From the IMG/VR virus record IMGVR_UViG_3300031951_000860, positions 1 to 29,992 of that record: a stretch of 29,992 nucleotides of DNA. One strand, 5' to 3'. This DNA is from a virus. Both the position numbers and the translations under genes were made by a program. A model generated the notes under the pieces. The model was not told the origin of the DNA. It worked only from the letters and a program-made list of their open reading frames with translations, and did no database searches. Below are positions 1 to 29,992 of this stretch, piece after piece (the stretch's first letter is position 1; each line of letters opens with the position of its first letter).

Positions 1-45
1 GGCGCATATGCCAACGATAAAGGCGATTGTACTAAATATAATCAT
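1..45 (-). CDS. Small membrane peptide, partial (left-end allele)
   Basis: Reads leftwards from an ATG at 45-43 and runs off the window after 15 codons (MIIFSTIAFIVGICA). It is the same gene as the complete 30-aa peptide at 29739-29831, but with substitutions at residues 6, 8, 9, 10 and 11 that all keep the segment hydrophobic. Its start lies inside the end of the HAD-like gene. Function unknown; the visible part is a single transmembrane helix. Confidence 0.7.
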   Translation of the reverse strand, partial: MIIFSTIAFIVGICA

Positions 46-206
46 CGGCCTTGAATAGTATTGCTTTCGCGTGTGGTGCTCTTGCGTTTATTTTGTCGAC
101 TTGTTCCTTAGAATTGTCGTAGTGAGTCCCGATGTGATGTTTCATCACGAATGTGTACTTGTCCATTCCTTCGGTAAAAATCACTTTTGCTCGGCTGATT
201 CCAAGT
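1..206. repeat. Left copy of 206-bp terminal direct repeat
   Basis: These bases align without gaps to 29787-29992 (offset 29786). There are 14 mismatches: 11 within positions 1-31 and only three in 32-206 (92, 110, 191). The three all fall on third codon positions of the HAD-like gene and are silent. An exact terminal repeat would be expected from a single molecule, so the two ends most likely come from two related strains of a circularly permuted or circularised genome. A true tandem duplication of this segment is the alternative. Confidence 0.9.
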
Positions 207-376: not shown

Positions 377-815
377 TTTCGTTGATGTGTCGTTTTAATT
401 CACTGAGAATCGTCTTGGCGTTACAACTGGTGCACGAGATTCGTTGGTCGCTCATCTTGTTGAACCACTTGGTGATTTCGGTGATGATTTTCGGGTCGCT
501 GAGACTTCCCGTCTTGGGCAATGAGTTGAGAAACGTCTTGAGTTGTTCGACGTCCTCATCGGTCAATTTGTACTTTCCCCATTTTCCGAGCGGGCACTCG
601 GCCAATCTCAACCACGTCTTGAGGCGCATATCGCAACCGCAGAGTCTCGCTTTCCGTCGGTAGTATGTGACGACATTCTCGTCATCTTGTTCGTCAATTT
701 TGTTGCCGATGAACTTTGTTCCGCACGAATGCGTTTGTTCCTTGTAATACTTGCAACCTCGGCAAGTGTCGAATCGTTCGCGTCGGACGGTATTCGGTAC
801 GTTAAAGTTGAACAT
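369..815 (-). CDS. Cysteine-rich, probably zinc-binding protein
   Basis: 148 aa with CRGC at 18-21, further cysteines at 31, 59 and 61 (LCGC), CPLG near 74, and CTSC near the C-terminus, enough for two zinc-ribbon-like sites. The middle (YYRRKARLCGCDMRLKTW) is basic and aromatic, suggesting nucleic-acid or protein contact. I do not recognise a named family; similar Cys-rich proteins occur beside structural genes in Bacteroidetes phages, but that is from general memory. It overlaps the sigma gene by 14 bases upstream and the HAD-like gene by 8 downstream, so it belongs to the same transcript. A regulatory partner of the sigma factor or a DNA-processing role are both possible. Confidence 0.6.
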   Translation of the reverse strand: MFNFNVPNTVRRERFDTCRGCKYYKEQTHSCGTKFIGNKIDEQDDENVVTYYRRKARLCGCDMRLKTWLRLAECPLGKWGKYKLTDEDVEQLKTFLNSLPKTGSLSDPKIITEITKWFNKMSDQRISCTSCNAKTILSELKRHINENE

Positions 816-1365
816 TCCTTTTAATTTTATTGATTGCTTTCTCCACTAACTTGTAAAGGGTCTTGACCTCGATTCCCGTCTCATCGGAGCACTTTTGATA
901 ACTGAAATCGGTCATCATATATAGTCGGAGCATTGTGGCGTCGAGTTCGGGCATCATCGAGATATAGGCATCTAAGTATTCGTTGTCGAGTCGGCTTCCC
1001 AACCAAGGAGCGTCGCGTTCCTTTTCGTGTGCGGTTGATTCGCTTATCCACCTTAACTCAAACGAGCGGTATTTTGTCCCGTATCGGCTTGACTTGTCGA
1101 TTGCCATTAAGTAAAGCGACCGATTGACGTAAGCGAATAGGCCGCCATCACTCGCCAGTTGACACAACTTGTCGCCCTGATTCTCGAGTATCTTGAGCAT
1201 CGTCTCGGAAAGGAGGTCATCGCCCTTCACCCGGTCGCGCATCAATCCGCTTGCAAATCGTTGCCATATGGGGAGGTGTTTACTCAATTCGATATTTATG
1301 TCGCAAGTTGTCAACTTTGTTCGATGTAGCGAATAACTTACATATCTTTGCCAAATGTAACACAC
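802..1365 (-). CDS. Phage-encoded sigma-70 family (ECF-like) sigma factor
   Basis: 187 aa. The N-terminal half matches sigma region 2: IWQRFASGLM, then DDLLSETMLKILE, then a stretch with AYVNRSLYLMAIDKSSR that fits the -10 recognition and core-binding helices. The C-terminal half matches region 4: ISMMPELDATMLRLYMM, FSYQKCSDETGI and a last helix VKTLYKLVEKAINKIKR, the usual -35 recognition HTH. It should bind host core polymerase and redirect it, presumably to phage promoters on the minus-strand arm. The start is uncertain: ATG at 1365 lies upstream of the -7 box at 1352-1359, so if that promoter is used, translation must begin lower, at TTG 1314 or TTG 1287 (just before the conserved LPIWQRF). 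Confidence 0.8.
   Translation of the reverse strand: MCYIWQRYVSYSLHRTKLTTCDINIELSKHLPIWQRFASGLMRDRVKGDDLLSETMLKILENQGDKLCQLASDGGLFAYVNRSLYLMAIDKSSRYGTKYRSFELRWISESTAHEKERDAPWLGSRLDNEYLDAYISMMPELDATMLRLYMMTDFSYQKCSDETGIEVKTLYKLVEKAINKIKRNVQL
1317..1350 (+). promoter_or_regulatory. Bacteroidetes-type promoter for the plus-strand early operon
   Basis: TTG at 1317-1319, a 23-base spacer, and TATCTTTG at 1343-1350 match the flavobacterial consensus TTG-N(17-23)-TAnnTTTG exactly. Transcription would start near 1357 and reach the HTH gene at 1398 after a short leader. Confidence 0.7.
1352..1359 (-). promoter_or_regulatory. Opposing -7 box for the sigma-factor operon
   Basis: Read on the minus strand this is TACATTTG, a full match to TAnnTTTG. 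It lies one base from the plus-strand -7 box, pointing the other way. No TTG is found at the correct -33 distance, so the promoter is either weak or activator-dependent. Confidence 0.45.
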
Positions 1366-15395: not shown

Positions 15396-15425
15396 AAAAA
15401 AAAAGAGAGGAGATAAACCCCTCTC
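15396..15425 (-). terminator. Intrinsic terminator (minus strand)
   Basis: On the minus strand: stem GAGAGG, nine-base loop, CCTCTC, then a run of nine T. It lies between the gene ending at 15455 and the one starting at 15377, so it should reduce transcription from the capsid genes into the portal and lysis genes. Confidence 0.75.
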
Positions 15426-17657: not shown

Positions 17658-17683
17658 AAAAAAAAAAGAGGTCAACCGACCTC
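17658..17683 (-). terminator. Intrinsic terminator (minus strand)
   Basis: On the minus strand: GAGGTC, loop GGTT, GACCTC, then a run of ten T. The stem overlaps the stop region of the protease gene (17672). It should lower read-through into scaffold and capsid or separate two transcripts. Confidence 0.75.
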
Positions 17684-18279: not shown

Positions 18280-20283
18280 TTATCCTATTCGTGCGAGGTC
18301 AATCACTTTGTCGCGTGCCTCAATTCCGCTTGCTACATCACCCGCGAGTACATAGGCGGGAATCGGTTGTTGTGGTCGGTTGTTTAACTGGTCAAAGTTC
18401 AAAGCGTTGAACGATGGCGCACTCGTTCCACCGCCTTCACCTCCGCCGCCGCCAACTGATGGCGTAGTCGATGATGGAGGACTTGATGATTCGTATTTGG
18501 TTGATGCGATTTTTGCAATGTTTGCCGCGCTTGTGAGTGCCGCAAATGCAAGTGATGCAATACCCACAGGGTTCGGCACGACTCCAATCGCAACGGGAGC
18601 GGCGGCAAGTGAGGCCGTGATTGCTTTGCCCGCGTCGATGATAGCACCCGCAAGTTGCAGTTTTTTGTTGAATTCAAATTGCTTTCTCGCGAGTTGCTCC
18701 TCCTCTTTACTTCCTTTTTTGACCTTCGACATTTTATTCGCAAAAGCGACATCGGCAAGTCCTTGCAACGCGGAGACGCCTTGTTGCGCGAGGTCGAGAT
18801 TTGCTTGAAACGTCTCGAGATTAAGTTGGCGAATTTTCTCTTGCTTCTCTCTTTCGAGTTCGACAATTTTCTCGGCATCACCAAACGCGAGACGTTCCTT
18901 CTCGGCGTACTCAAGTTCCAATAAAGCACGACGCTCATCGAAACCAATCAAATCATTTTGAGCGCGCAACACATTCAACTCGTTTGTTCGGGCAATCTCC
19001 GCGTCACTTATTGCGGTTGCATTCGACGCGAGTGCTTGGTCGAGTTCTTGTTTCTTGGTATTGTATGCGATTTCGGCATCGAGTCGCGCTTGCGTTCCTT
19101 GGTTGTACTTGTCAATTTCGGATTGTAAGCGTTCAAGTTGAATCACCTTCTCCTCCTCCAATACTCCGCGTTGAGCGTTCAATCGTTCGAGGTCATTCTT
19201 TATCGAATCAGCGGCGAACTTGGCGTTTGCGATATTGAGTTCGGTTGTGCTTTGTGCTTGTGCTTTGAGTAGTTCGTTGTATTCGCGAGTCAAGGCCATC
19301 GCGTTCATTTGTTGCTCGGACATTAACCCCGCAACCTTCGCCCGAACGCCGTCGGCATTTGCAAGAGCGGCCGTGAGTGCAACCTGATTGTCGATTGTTT
19401 GGTTGTGCTCGAATGCCGCTTGCGCCGCCGCGACTTGAGCACTGGCCGCCGCGAGTTCGGCAGTCTCTTGTTTTTTGAGTACATCGAGCAAGTCATCATT
19501 CGACTTTATGCGGTCACTTATCGAACGGGTCTCATCATCGCGTTGTTGACGCAATACCTCCGCTTGCCTATCGAATTGCTCCGCGAGTCGCGCTTGTTGG
19601 GCGGCGGCTAACTTTGCATTGTTCTGCAACTGAACCAAGGCCATATTCGCGTCGTATGTCGCGGATGCATACTCGGTGAATGCCGCCACACCTTCGACAA
19701 CTGCATCACTCACCCGGTCAACGGTGTTGTTCACGCCAGTCAACACGTCGACCGATTCCTTTCCCGCACTCTTAAACGACTCAAGTGCCGCACTAAACTC
19801 CCCACTAAACAAGTTTTTCACGCCCTCGGCAATGAATCCAAGCGTATCGAGAAACGATTGAAAGCGTTCGATGAGATTCTCGACGATTGCGTCGCCGAAA
19901 TTCTTAAGTGATTGCACTGGGTCATCGAATATCGCTTTGAACCAATCAACGACCGCACCCGCGTTGTCGGTGATGTACGAAAAAAGGTCACGAATGATGT
20001 CGGCCGCAGTTCCAAGCACCGCAGAAAAGGTGTCGAGTACCTTTTGATTGCCCGAAATCACCTCTTTTAAGAAAGCAAACGCCGCAACAAGCAACCCGAT
20101 TCCCGATGCTTTGATTGCCGTGCCCATTGCCTTAAACCCTGACGCGCTTTTTTCAGCGGACTTTTTAATATCGCCCGCAGTTTTTTCGGTCTTTTGAAGA
20201 CTCTCGTTGACTTTATCGATGTTTGTGACTGCGCCCGTTGAATCAACGGTTAATTGCAACACATATGACTTGTTTTCGGCCAT
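18280..20283 (-). CDS. Tail tape measure protein
   Basis: 667 aa. Starts MAENKSYVLQLTVDSTGAV, typical of tape measures, with a hydrophobic helix near residues 57-80 (SGIGLLVAAFAFLKEV) and an additional hydrophobic region around 560-600. The middle (about 230-500) is long coiled coil rich in A, Q, E and R, with a glycine-rich end. At roughly 1.5 angstrom per residue it would set a tail near 100 nm (general rule, not measured here). It is short for siphophages. Unusually it is separated by six genes and some 8 kb from the chaperone-like pair at 28.4-29.2 kb. Confidence 0.85.
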   Translation of the reverse strand: MAENKSYVLQLTVDSTGAVTNIDKVNESLQKTEKTAGDIKKSAEKSASGFKAMGTAIKASGIGLLVAAFAFLKEVISGNQKVLDTFSAVLGTAADIIRDLFSYITDNAGAVVDWFKAIFDDPVQSLKNFGDAIVENLIERFQSFLDTLGFIAEGVKNLFSGEFSAALESFKSAGKESVDVLTGVNNTVDRVSDAVVEGVAAFTEYASATYDANMALVQLQNNAKLAAAQQARLAEQFDRQAEVLRQQRDDETRSISDRIKSNDDLLDVLKKQETAELAAASAQVAAAQAAFEHNQTIDNQVALTAALANADGVRAKVAGLMSEQQMNAMALTREYNELLKAQAQSTTELNIANAKFAADSIKNDLERLNAQRGVLEEEKVIQLERLQSEIDKYNQGTQARLDAEIAYNTKKQELDQALASNATAISDAEIARTNELNVLRAQNDLIGFDERRALLELEYAEKERLAFGDAEKIVELEREKQEKIRQLNLETFQANLDLAQQGVSALQGLADVAFANKMSKVKKGSKEEEQLARKQFEFNKKLQLAGAIIDAGKAITASLAAAPVAIGVVPNPVGIASLAFAALTSAANIAKIASTKYESSSPPSSTTPSVGGGGGEGGGTSAPSFNALNFDQLNNRPQQPIPAYVLAGDVASGIEARDKVIDLARIG

Positions 20284-25787: not shown

Positions 25788-28421
25788 TTATAGTGTTTCT
25801 TGATATTCGATTGTTGAACCCGCCCTTAATGAAAACTGACCAGCACCCGCGCAACGAACGCGAATGGTAAATGTTCCGCTTGCCGTCGTTCGAATCATTC
25901 CCTCTCCAATGCAAACACCTGAACTCGTCATTGCCCCGTTTGTACCCGTATCATAAAGAACCCCCGTCTGATTCACTACCGATGTTGCCGAAAGTGTTGC
26001 GGTATATCGATAAACCATCCAATTAAATGTTGGCCCAGTTACACTAAATGTCACACCGTTAAGTGACGTAAACGCAAGCACCGCTTTCCACTTATATGTT
26101 TTATTCGCGCTCACCGCAAAAGACAAATCAGTCACACTTTCAAAACCAGTTCCGACATTTGTGAATGTTGACGCAAGTATTGCCGTTTGAGTTGCGACAA
26201 TAGACAAGTCGGTTGCAAGTTGCGCCGCGCTGATGCTACTCACCGAATTGTCGGCGTTTACTCTCAAGTAACGAATCGCGTTCGGGTTCGGTAGTGTTGC
26301 GATGTTCGTCCCGACGGTTGTCAATCCGATACTATTTTGCTTGCCGTTGAAAGTTGACCAGTCCGCACTCGACAAAGCACCGCGATTCGATGCCGATGCC
26401 GTCGGTAGGTTAAACGTATGAACCGAACCACTTGAGTTGATTGCGAAATCCGTTCCCGCAGTTCCGACGGCAAACGTTTGGGTTGAATCGGTCAGGCCGT
26501 TGAGCGAACTGAGTCCGATGGCATAGGTCGTATGAACCTCTCCGATTTTGTTTCCCTCCGTGTAAAGAGTGACCGTCTTCCCATTTGTGTTTTGAATATC
26601 GAACTCGATGTGAATGCGGTCGGTTGCGAGTGTGACCGTGTTGGGGACCGATATCGTGAAAGTGTACAAGTCGGGAACGTTGCCGTTCGTTATCTCCTCC
26701 ATTGTCGAGGTTGCAATCAACGTGAACGTGCTTCCGTTATATGTGTAAAGTTTCGCGAGTATCTGCGCGTGATTCGACCCGCCTCCCGTCTCACTCAAGT
26801 ATACATCGATAGTCCACACTCCCGACGGGATGACGAGGTGATTCGGTGACCCTACATCGGTGATGAAACGAGCAATCACGCCAGTGGTCGCCCGTGTAAA
26901 GTTCGCCGCTGACCCGGTGTTCGCCGCAGTCCCGAGTTCATAATAAGCGTTGCCGCCGATGCTCGGTTGCGAGACGTTGCCGTTAAAGTAGAAAATTTGA
27001 CCGCCGCCGCCTCCCGTACTTGGAAAATTGGCGAGAGTGCCATCACCCCGAACATATTGGTCAGTGGTTCCCGCTCCTGTCACCGCGAGGGTTCCCGATG
27101 TGGTCACTGGTGAGTTAGCGACATTAAATGCACTCGGCATCGTGAGACCGACCGATGTGACCGTTCCACTTCCCGTTGACGGAGTTGCCGCTTCCCATTC
27201 GCTCGTCGTTGTGTTATATGTAAGCACCTGACCATTCGATGGACTCGGAGCATTCACATCACCAAGGTCATCCAAGTTGGTTGGTATGGTCGGCAAATTG
27301 TCAAGGTCGTTATAGTCACCCGATGTCGCAACCGCCGCGAGTGTCGGCTTGTTGAGTATCTCTTCGACACCGCTCACCGCATTCCAATCGGAATTGACTT
27401 GTGCGGCGGGAATCGTTGGTTTGTTCAATATCTCGGCAACTCCCGAGGTTGCGTCCCAATCTGCGTTGACTTGCGCGGGAACATCACCAATCGTAATGAA
27501 ACCACTGTCGTTGGTCAGTTCGCTTGTTGCCGTCGGAATCGTCGGCTTATTCAAAATTTGATTGTCGCCAGTTGTCGCGTTCCAATCTACGGGCGTTTGG
27601 CGTTGACGATAACCCGCTCCGACGAGTGTCCAATATGAGGTGTTCGTTGGAATTATGGCGTCGTTGCTTGCGGTGCATCGGTAAACGTTGCCGTTATACC
27701 ACACCAAATCGCCGACGATGTACTGGTTGCCGAGCGACGTGTTGTGATTGACGTTGTACTCGGTGCTCGAAAGCGTGCCCGAACCGCCTCCGCCACTTGA
27801 ATTGACTTGAACGCGACCGTCACCTAAATCTTGAATAGTGGTATTCGTGCCATCGACCAAATCGAGAATAGATTGAACGACGTTGTTAGTTCCGTTGACC
27901 CTTAACACAAGGCCAGTCCCACCGCCGCCCGAACCGCCCGAACCCGAACCGCCCGCACTCCAATCAGCGGGAATCTCGCAAGCACTCCAATCATTCGGGA
28001 ATGTCATCGATAACTTGCAATTCACCCCGGTCAAGGTGTGAGTGTACTCCTCAATAAAAGGTTCGATTGTGGTTCCTCCCTCAAGAGTGACCTCAGTTCC
28101 GAAGATTATGCCGCCGTTTTTGATTTCGCTGATTAAGTCCTCCGCCAATCGGATGCAATCACTCAGTGACTCACGTTGATACTCGGTCGGTGTCTCCTTG
28201 TCGCGAGGTAGGTCAGCAAACACGACATCGAATTCATACGACATCGACCCGTCTCCGGGTGTCATCGATACGGGAACGACGTGCATCCAAGGATATTCAT
28301 TCTCCTGAACGATGTCGGTCACATCGATTTGACCGTGTGAAAATCTGCGAATGAGATAGTGCCCATCGGCGAATGCCTTGAACCGCTCAATCACTATGTT
28401 GTAACTTGTCTTAGTAAGCAT
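25788..28421 (-). CDS. Neck/tail-completion domain fused to long fibre
   Basis: 877 aa. Residues 1-150 ([34 protein letters not shown]) look like a separate small neck or tail-completion protein. A glycine hinge at 156-170 ([15 protein letters not shown]) and another near 210-215 lead into a fibre. The region about 270-360 has four repeats built around DWNA-x-x-G and ILNKPTIP, as in phage tail fibres; the middle is Thr/Ser/Gly-rich; the last about 130 residues are a beta sandwich-like tip ([34 protein letters not shown]), perhaps TNF/C1q-like and receptor-binding. The fusion would anchor the fibre at the neck or tail end. Confidence 0.7.
27337..27595 (-). repeat. Fibre repeats (DWNA...ILNKPT units)
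   Basis: Three clear imperfect repeats and a partial fourth encode D-W-N/D-A-x-x-G-x-x-x-ILNKPTI/L units, with spacers of varied length. They form the fibre shaft; copy number may vary between strains. Confidence 0.7.
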
Positions 28422-28584
28422 TGCTCTGCATTTTTATTCGTTGTCGTTGTGTGTCGTTGTAATCTCTTAAATAACTCAAGTGCGTCATCACCTCATACAC
28501 TGGTCGGTTGAGCACCGCATCGAATTTCGTGATGTCTCGGTCGGTAAGTGTCTCGATGATATTCATCCACCCCCATCGGTTCAT
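28411..28584 (-). CDS. Downstream T-like part (57-aa frame)
   Basis: The frame from ATG 28584, overlapping the preceding stop by 4 bases. Contains [20 protein letters not shown] and [19 protein letters not shown]. It may be made alone by reinitiation or only as the end of the frameshift product. It overlaps the next gene by 11 bases. Confidence 0.5.
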
Positions 28585-29165
28585 ATCATTTGCGCCAATT
28601 GGTTCCTCATCATCGTCGTCTCCTCCTCCAAAAAGGCCACTGAACTTTGAACCAATTCGCTTAGAATAGTCGAAAAAAAAACCAACACACCGTGCACTTG
28701 CGCCATCGTGAGCGACTTGACCGCATCCATATAATACTTGACCCTATCAACGTCATATATCTCAAGTTCGTAGTGTTTGCCGAACCGACTTTTAATCGGG
28801 CGATATAGCACCGCCATTAAGTTCGGGAGGTGTGAGTAGTCGATTTGTTCCTTGTCCTTCCAAATCGCTTGCGCGTAAGTGTCGAGGTCGATGTGCTCGC
28901 GGAGTGATAACGCGTCAATGTCAGGAACGAACCCGAGGTCAGTGTCACCCTTCACAACGTAGTCAAGTCGGGGAGCACCATTGTCCAAAGCGGTCGAGTA
29001 TTCGTTCACGATTGTTTCGATGGTCGATGCTTGCCACGATTCGACGGTCTTTTTTGATGCGCCAGTGATGAGCATCACTCTCTCGACATCGGACTTGAGC
29101 GAATGATATCGCACGAACTCTCCGAGCGTGATATCGTTGTAATTCTGCGGGACGGTTATCTTCAT
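28411..29165 (-). CDS. Tail assembly chaperone long form (gpGT-like, -1 frameshift product)
   Basis: Predicted 251-aa product. The first 164 residues come from the zero frame; at the heptamer T TTT TTT (28680-28674) a -1 slip changes the next residues to [15 protein letters not shown], then GGG and the acidic linker DDDDEE, then straight into the 57-aa frame that begins [10 protein letters not shown] and ends at 28411. I checked the -1 frame codon by codon between slip site and stop: no stop codon. In lambda and many siphophages the short form gpG and the long form gpGT bind the tape measure and recruit tail-tube protein. The downstream frame also has its own ATG at 28584. Confidence 0.75.
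28581..29165 (-). CDS. Tail assembly chaperone short form (gpG-like)
   Basis: 194 aa. Opens [20 protein letters not shown]; a central [13 protein letters not shown] is followed by [20 protein letters not shown], and the end carries [15 protein letters not shown]. Comparable proteins in Bacteroidetes phages carry this LMA-x-LYRPI block. Assignment as the G-type chaperone depends mainly on the frameshift site within its last 30 codons and the extension frame after it. Start ATG overlaps the TerS-like stop by 4 bases. Acts in the cytoplasm during tail assembly and is not expected in the virion. Confidence 0.65.
   Translation of the reverse strand: MKITVPQNYNDITLGEFVRYHSLKSDVERVMLITGASKKTVESWQASTIETIVNEYSTALDNGAPRLDYVVKGDTDLGFVPDIDALSLREHIDLDTYAQAIWKDKEQIDYSHLPNLMAVLYRPIKSRFGKHYELEIYDVDRVKYYMDAVKSLTMAQVHGVLVFFSTILSELVQSSVAFLEEETTMMRNQLAQMI
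28674..28680 (-). promoter_or_regulatory. Slippery heptamer for -1 ribosomal frameshift
   Basis: T TTT TTT in the zero frame of the G-like gene (GTT TTT TTT TCG, codons 162-165) within a run of nine T (28673-28681). It is an ideal X-XXY-YYZ site. Frame checked: position 28673 is the first base of codon 165 from the start at 29165. No convincing downstream pseudoknot seen by eye. Confidence 0.75.
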
Positions 29166-29500
29166 AGGTTCGCGGCGATGTGAATAATGGGTTGACCCTC
29201 GTTGCCCGTCAATTCGGTGCGCTCAACGAAACCGCGTTTTTTACCTTTGGTCTTGAGGTAGAAGATAGTCGACGCGACGTCACCGCCATCAATCAGGGTG
29301 TGCAACTTGGACTCGGCGAAATCAATCACCTCCTCACCGATGTTCTCAATATCCTCTTTATACTCCGGGTCATCCTTCAACCAGTTGTAGTGAGTCCTTC
29401 TATCGATGCCGACCTCTCGACACGCCGTTGATACGATGCCGAGCGACTTTCGCATCGCTTCGACCATCGCCTTTTTGAGTGTAGAGTTTTGATGATTCAT
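29162..29500 (-). CDS. terS: Terminase small subunit-like protein
   Basis: 112 aa. N-terminal HTH (SLGIVSTACREVGIDRRTHYNW then LKDDPEY), a central helical oligomerisation segment (EEVIDFAESKLHTLIDGG) and the ending FYLKTKGKKRGFVERTE, the arrangement of many small terminases: DNA recognition, ring formation, then a C-terminal segment. It should bind the packaging site and load TerL. Unlike usual, it is not adjacent to terL (3561-4859), which lies on the opposite strand. The gap just upstream (29501-29596) holds repeats and could contain its binding site. Confidence 0.7.
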   Translation of the reverse strand: MNHQNSTLKKAMVEAMRKSLGIVSTACREVGIDRRTHYNWLKDDPEYKEDIENIGEEVIDFAESKLHTLIDGGDVASTIFYLKTKGKKRGFVERTELTGNEGQPIIHIAANL

Positions 29501-29738: not shown

Positions 29739-29831
29739 TTAGTCTCGTTTGTTTATTTCGTTCACTCCTTGTACTATCCCGATAGTGGCGCAAATGCCAA
29801 TAGTCAGGAGAATTATGCTAAATATAATCAT
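29739..29831 (-). CDS. 30-aa membrane peptide (right-end allele, complete)
   Basis: MIIFSIILLTIGICATIGIV then QGVNEINKRD: one transmembrane helix with a short polar tail. It starts inside the end of the HAD-like gene (its ATG is 14 bases before that stop) and ends one base before the 46-aa gene. Compared with the left-end copy, residues 6 and 8-11 differ, but all stay hydrophobic apart from Thr. Possibly a membrane anchor or small effector; unknown. Confidence 0.6.
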   Translation of the reverse strand: MIIFSIILLTIGICATIGIVQGVNEINKRD

Positions 29832-29992
29832 CGGCCTTGAATAGTATTGCTTTCGCGTGTGGTGCTCTTGCGTTTATCTTGTCGACTTGTTCCTTGGAAT
29901 TGTCGTAGTGAGTCCCGATGTGATGTTTCATCACGAATGTGTACTTGTCCATTCCTTCGGTAAAAATCACTTTTGCCCGGCTGATTCCAAGT
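29787..29992. repeat. Right copy of 206-bp terminal direct repeat
   Basis: Partner of 1-206. It shows that the minus-strand operon continues across the ends. Unit length implied is 29786 bases. Confidence 0.9.
29818..29992 (-). CDS. HAD-like phosphatase, partial (right-end copy)
   Basis: The last 57 codons and stop of the same gene as 32-376, cut by the window end. Encoded protein is identical in the overlap; three silent third-position changes (29878, 29896, 29977). Confidence 0.85.
   Translation of the reverse strand, partial: LGISRAKVIFTEGMDKYTFVMKHHIGTHYDNSKEQVDKINARAPHAKAILFKADDYI

Follow-up and report, generated by a model that had tools for sequence, protein, structure and literature searches.

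Slip site and genomic setting

On the minus strand of the window, by which is meant the whole 29,992-nucleotide stretch analysed here (positions 1 to 29,992 of IMG/VR virus record IMGVR_UViG_3300031951_000860), lies a gene of 194 codons with a run of nine T's near the end of its reading frame (Table 1). The block around this gene also contains tape measure, protease, major capsid and portal genes. Because the ends of the window (1-206 and 29787-29992) form a 206-base direct terminal repeat of 94% identity, the window probably holds almost all of a circularly permuted phage genome about 29.8 kb long, and the two repeat copies probably differ by strain variation. The phage also carries an RNA polymerase sigma factor-like gene (window 802-1365, minus strand; phrog_1740, E 9e-10).

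Table 1. Features of the slip-site gene and its neighbours, in window coordinates
Feature	Positions	Strand	Support
Terminase small subunit-like gene upstream, its stop codon overlapping the slip-site gene's start (ATGA)	29162..29500	minus	
Zero-frame ORF, 194 aa, short gpG-like product	28581..29165	minus	pLDDT 93 (AF2); homologues A2/A4; phrog_32199, E 8e-8
Slip site, nine T's on the coding strand	28673..28681	minus	T9/T10 in 333/333 distinct relatives
-1 frame extension, 87 codons and stop, gpT-like domain	28411..28674	minus	substitution pattern by codon position; one-frame distant homologues
Doubly read stretch past the slip	28581..28672	minus	
57-aa ORF within the -1 extension, ATG at 28584; separate gene not supported	28411..28584	minus	
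Downstream gene, 877 aa, C-terminal part tail fibre-like; start overlaps the end of the -1 frame	25788..28421	minus	
Tape measure protein candidate	18280..20283	minus	phrog_21537, E 1e-24 (virion structural protein); phrog_3336 (tape measure), E 4e-7

A direct check of the sequence confirms that codons 162-165 of the zero-frame ORF read GTT TTT TTT TCG, with the heptamer T TTT TTT in phase at 28680-28674 inside the nine-T (T9) run, just as the original prediction had described. The further claim that a -1 slip at this site opens a frame of 87 codons running into the 57-aa frame also holds; the computed joined product has 164 + 87 = 251 aa, and the -1 frame stops at 28411. In the zero frame, an N-terminal domain (residues 1-164) is followed by a 30-codon tail, predicted to continue the last helix. 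The model of the N-terminal domain is of high quality (pLDDT 93) and that of the -1 domain, which is helical, is of medium confidence (pLDDT 73). The slip site is within the final long helix (residues 154-193), such that in these models the short form ends in the helix and the long form goes on via a flexible linker to a second domain. The bridging stretch itself (GGG-DDDDEE), once thought to resemble a designed linker, is variable among relatives and is not a conserved element.

Elsewhere on the minus strand of the window, T runs of nine or more occur only at 15396-15404 and 17658-17667, each just before structural genes; the former sits after a terminator-like hairpin.

Conservation of the -1 arrangement

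In close relatives (90-99% identity) both the run and the open -1 frame are retained unaltered. At 27% identity, gp38 of Nonlabens phage P12024S reads CTT TTT TTT TAT at the equivalent place, and the -1 frame from gp38 continues into the annotated gp39. A scan with gp38 as query yielded 63 further loci, all with the site. These first 63 loci were mostly found through the slip-spanning peptide, which could bias the sample, and the searches were therefore repeated with the -1 domain alone and with the N-domain alone, the latter query being blind to the slip site. In all 223 of the 223 loci with both domains, T_TTT_TTT separates the first domain from a second one read in the -1 frame. The full set, which also drew on prophage and genome contigs and on a scan for a DNA pattern unconstrained at positions 1, 8 and 9, comprises 333 distinct relatives with both domains at identities down to about 20%. 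The pattern scan (79 loci) required six T's and is informative only for run length beyond six. Every one of the 333 exhibits the same -1 arrangement with a T9 or T10 run, and the motif W-G-W-Y...GDI... of the second domain is found in the -1 frame across the set. More specifically, no member of the family lacks the heptamer or has a closed -1 frame, the two states that the original prediction had named as refuting it. Run lengths in metagenome assemblies can err, and the isolate genomes of P12024S, P12024L and Galbibacter pacificus concur with them. One candidate relative (L006) was rejected as a chance match.

The family is common: a single viral collection yields at least 559 relatives, and the family is present in 28 of the 101 genomes of the family to which a Dysgonomonas metagenome-assembled genome belongs. 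The hosts are Bacteroidota, as illustrated by Nonlabens phage P12024S and by Galbibacter, Flavobacterium and Dysgonomonas contigs; this bears out the earlier suggestion of a Bacteroidetes-type example.

Substitutions by codon position reveal how the two frames are constrained. Among closely related pairs, 359 of the 558 changes in the stretch read only in the -1 frame fall at its third codon positions. In the doubly read stretch the -1 third position is again the most variable (1150 changes versus 869 and 312), and the -1 frame therefore constrains this stretch more than the zero frame does. The third-position pattern called for by the original prediction is thus present, and these substitutions show the -1 frame to be under purifying selection. 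The zero frame past the slip is open for up to about 88 codons in relatives, in which nearly the whole -1 domain is overlapped, and the overlap of the two frames in relatives places constraint on both.

Some distant Bacteroidota homologues, most clearly L370 and L371 and, judged by eye, L404 and L364, apparently encode the two domains as a single ORF without interruption, and the T run is absent from them. The short form may be missing in these four or may be produced another way. At the protein level, several BFVD entries also match both predicted domains. Because the -1 arrangement recurs in 333 relatives, the -1 frame is under selection and some distant homologues join the domains in one ORF, the frame switch is, on these comparative grounds, practically certain to be real, and the -1 frame is to be regarded as true coding sequence attached to the zero frame.

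Run length, codon register and mechanism of slipping

A striking property of the run is its fixed length. Among the 333 loci, 303 have nine T's and 30 have ten; none is shorter or longer. The run occurs in three codon registers: NTT TTT TTT T.. (phase 2, the most frequent), TTT TTT TTT C.. (phase 1) and NNT TTT TTT TT[AG] (phase 3), the last comprising all Dysgonomonas-family prophages together with L363 and L255. A run that starts one base later also ends one base later. A tree of 163 N-domains requires no fewer than 17 changes in length or phase state, all within nine to ten T's; phase 3 has at least three origins on this tree, in which bootstrap support is not fully settled and some branches are long. 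In phase-3 genes TTR makes up only one third of the upstream leucine codons, and the leucine after the two phenylalanines is always TTR; the -1 frame also constrains that base. In every relative with both domains T_TTT_TTT is in phase, and no other heptamer was found to replace it among relatives.

Runs of this kind are rare outside the slip site. Of 2090 non-redundant genes on related contigs, 275 have T9 or T10 runs, and all but about two of these runs are the slip site itself. Elsewhere in the genes of the same phages, runs of seven T's (107 versus 305 expected) and of eight T's (12 versus 57 expected) are depleted, as are runs of nine or more, with about two outside the slip site. The mark of programmed transcriptional slippage is a homopolymeric A/T run of at least nine kept regardless of codon phase, and such a run is present throughout the family. 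In bacterial coding sequences, selection against transcriptional slippage usually becomes apparent once an A/T run reaches nine (PMC1088944), and the RNA:DNA hybrid in the polymerase spans 9-10 bp (PMC5009743).

Folding analyses of the surrounding RNA gave no conserved stimulator, the mean folding z being near 0 both upstream and downstream in sets of 70 to 142 diverse relatives; nor was a folding signal found in the phase-3 or sister sets. A 3' hairpin in the window (28573-28660) was considered as a stimulator and rejected: its energy is -24 kcal/mol but its z is only -1.6, and it is broken without compensation in two relatives (L004 and L005). No terminator-like hairpin was found upstream of the run.

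A sister family provides a natural control. It was recovered with L406 as query (L406-L471), occurs in 60 of the 301 genomes from a single Bacteroidota family, and possesses a homologous N-domain and a -1 extension, about 85 codons long, that holds a helical domain of similar kind. A ribosomal site of the type T_TTT_TTT needs seven T's in one phase. In contrast to the T9-10 run of the window's family, only the bare CA[T_TTT_TTT] is conserved in the sister family, where the run length varies from seven to nine and is set by the next codon (seven T's in 44, eight in 9 and nine in 2 of 55 loci). The 33 of 33 phase-3 loci of the focal family at T9 differ sharply from these 55 loci (Fisher p 3.5e-22; 8e-11 on 80% identity clusters). 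Run length in the sister family behaves as expected of ribosomal slipping. The heptamer is therefore enough for one family, while the window's family retains something longer and independent of phase. Within the sister family, L471 seems to have a +1 arrangement, possibly through an indel.

The likelier account of the window's gene is that it encodes a tail chaperone of a small tailed Bacteroidota phage, the long form of which would be made by programmed transcriptional slippage at the T9 run. Most mRNAs or ribosomes would give the 194-aa short form, and a minority would switch to the -1 frame at the run, giving the 251-aa long form with the second helical domain. Roles for the two forms can be proposed from lambda G/GT: the short one would serve as a coat for the tape measure protein, and the long one would bring in the tail tube protein. 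The RNA polymerase would insert an extra U at the run of nine to ten T's, which is about the length of its RNA:DNA hybrid, so that part of the mRNA pool would itself carry the fused frame; the ribosome may contribute by slipping -1 at the T_TTT_TTT within the run. In this explanation we infer the chaperone function, the ratio of short to long form and the action of the polymerase rather than the ribosome. Transcriptional slippage is favoured because a run of at least nine T's is kept in every codon phase and the sister family keeps the heptamer only.

The strongest alternative, though a tentative one with clearly the smaller probability, is a classical ribosomal frameshift of the lambda G/GT kind, by -1 at T_TTT_TTT. 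The T9 run always includes the in-phase heptamer, such that ribosomal slipping is possible at every locus; the sister family evidently functions on the heptamer alone; and the frame switches of known tail chaperones are described as ribosomal (PMC5009743; PMC3711429). The extra T's would then be retained by dual coding or as boosters of the slip rate, and, since they sit where both frames code, dual coding could hold part of the run. Against this, the run stays at nine to ten T's in three registers although seven or eight would be sufficient in two of them, and the sister family reveals that variation from seven to nine is free to occur. Furthermore, the heptamer is never substituted, the folding analyses gave no conserved RNA stimulator, and in E. 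coli U_UUU_UUU ranks with the weaker sites (PMC5009743). The simple ribosomal shift at T TTT TTT that was originally proposed is thus not supported as stated, the conserved feature being at least nine T's irrespective of phase. Either mechanism leads to the identical 251-aa protein.

Probable tail chaperone identity and relation to known systems

The reading of the gene as a lambda G/GT-like tail assembly chaperone is made with moderate confidence, because its layout resembles G/GT and matches, though weak ones in fold and family, point to tail proteins. Of 207 PDB chains, which were Foldseek candidates realigned with VIA-align, the HK97 tail assembly chaperone 2ob9 ranks first, with a weak Z of 3.2 over 57 residues. 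The PHROG tail protein phrog_166 matches 9 of 80 aligned members and Pfam Phage_TAC_7 matches one of the 80 weakly; Pfam otherwise gave no useful match, and no PDB relative was found by sequence. All 80 match phrog_32199, which includes gp38, with gp39, of Nonlabens phage P12024S. Of the earlier equation with lambda gpG/gpGT, the likeness of layout therefore stands and the name tail chaperone is only moderately supported, while the remark that the proteins are far from those of lambda agrees with the lack of any significant sequence match to gpG/gpGT.

It is unlikely, but worth weighing, that the frame switch is real and the protein pair is something other than a tail chaperone, for example a minor tail or head completion factor. 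A clear family match is absent from the searches, and the tape measure candidate, which would be the expected partner, is not directly after the slip-site gene, as it would be in lambda, but about 8 kb downstream. These points are outweighed by the layout of a short protein with a -1 helical extension, the setting amid tail and head genes, the match of phrog_166, and the rank of the HK97 chaperone as best structural match among the Foldseek candidates.

The chaperone frameshift is widely conserved in long-tailed phages and is assumed to be ribosomal. The window's gene and the tail assembly chaperones of the lambda gpG/gpGT type (Xu, Hendrix and Duda 2004, cited in PMC5009743) are alike in yielding two products, the longer of them through a -1 switch close to where the short frame ends, and in their small helical extension domain and location among tail genes. 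They differ in that the window's gene is not beside the tape measure gene, its frames overlap for up to about 88 codons in relatives, and its signal is a T run of fixed length, nine to ten, where lambda-type chaperones have a variable X_XXY_YYZ heptamer. Programmed slippage at nine A/T is known from Thermus dnaX (A9), from Shigella mxiE and related secretion genes, and from IS elements (PMC1088944; PMC3711429). These cases likewise have a conserved nine-A/T run followed by a conserved shifted coding frame; unlike them, the window's case, known from sequence comparison, is in a phage tail gene.

It is fairly probable, by a slightly narrower judgement than for the window's gene taken singly, that one family sets its ratio of short to long form by polymerase slippage on T9-10 and its sister obtains the same pair by ribosomal slipping on T7. 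Were this so, the case would parallel that of dnaX, with the product ratio being conserved and not the machine. It would further give a function to the unannotated family phrog_32199, offer annotators a homopolymer-length rule and make the T9 and T7 sister families a ready natural experiment. In the literature searched, outside which most subscription journals lie, tail chaperones were not found among the reported cases of transcriptional slippage.

Nonlabens phage P12024S, which belongs to this family and shares its -1 layout and T9 run, is recorded with gp38 and gp39 as two separate genes for hypothetical proteins, and the frame switch is absent from its annotation. That the corresponding 57-aa ORF of the window is likewise a separate, translationally coupled gene, with the -1 frame upstream of it open by coincidence, might be read from its own ATG overlapping the zero-frame stop and from the annotation of gp39, but is highly improbable given a -1 frame that in every relative can be read back to the run without a stop, purifying selection there, and both domains within one ORF in some distant homologues.

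A distant fold relative is found in Flavobacterium phage 6H (L351), where gp10 (10927-10020, minus strand) ends in TGT TTT TTC (T6C). An unannotated T-like domain (GMKGVLLSMAESGVYGPEQ...) lies downstream of this gp10, in the -1 frame and past a -1 stop.
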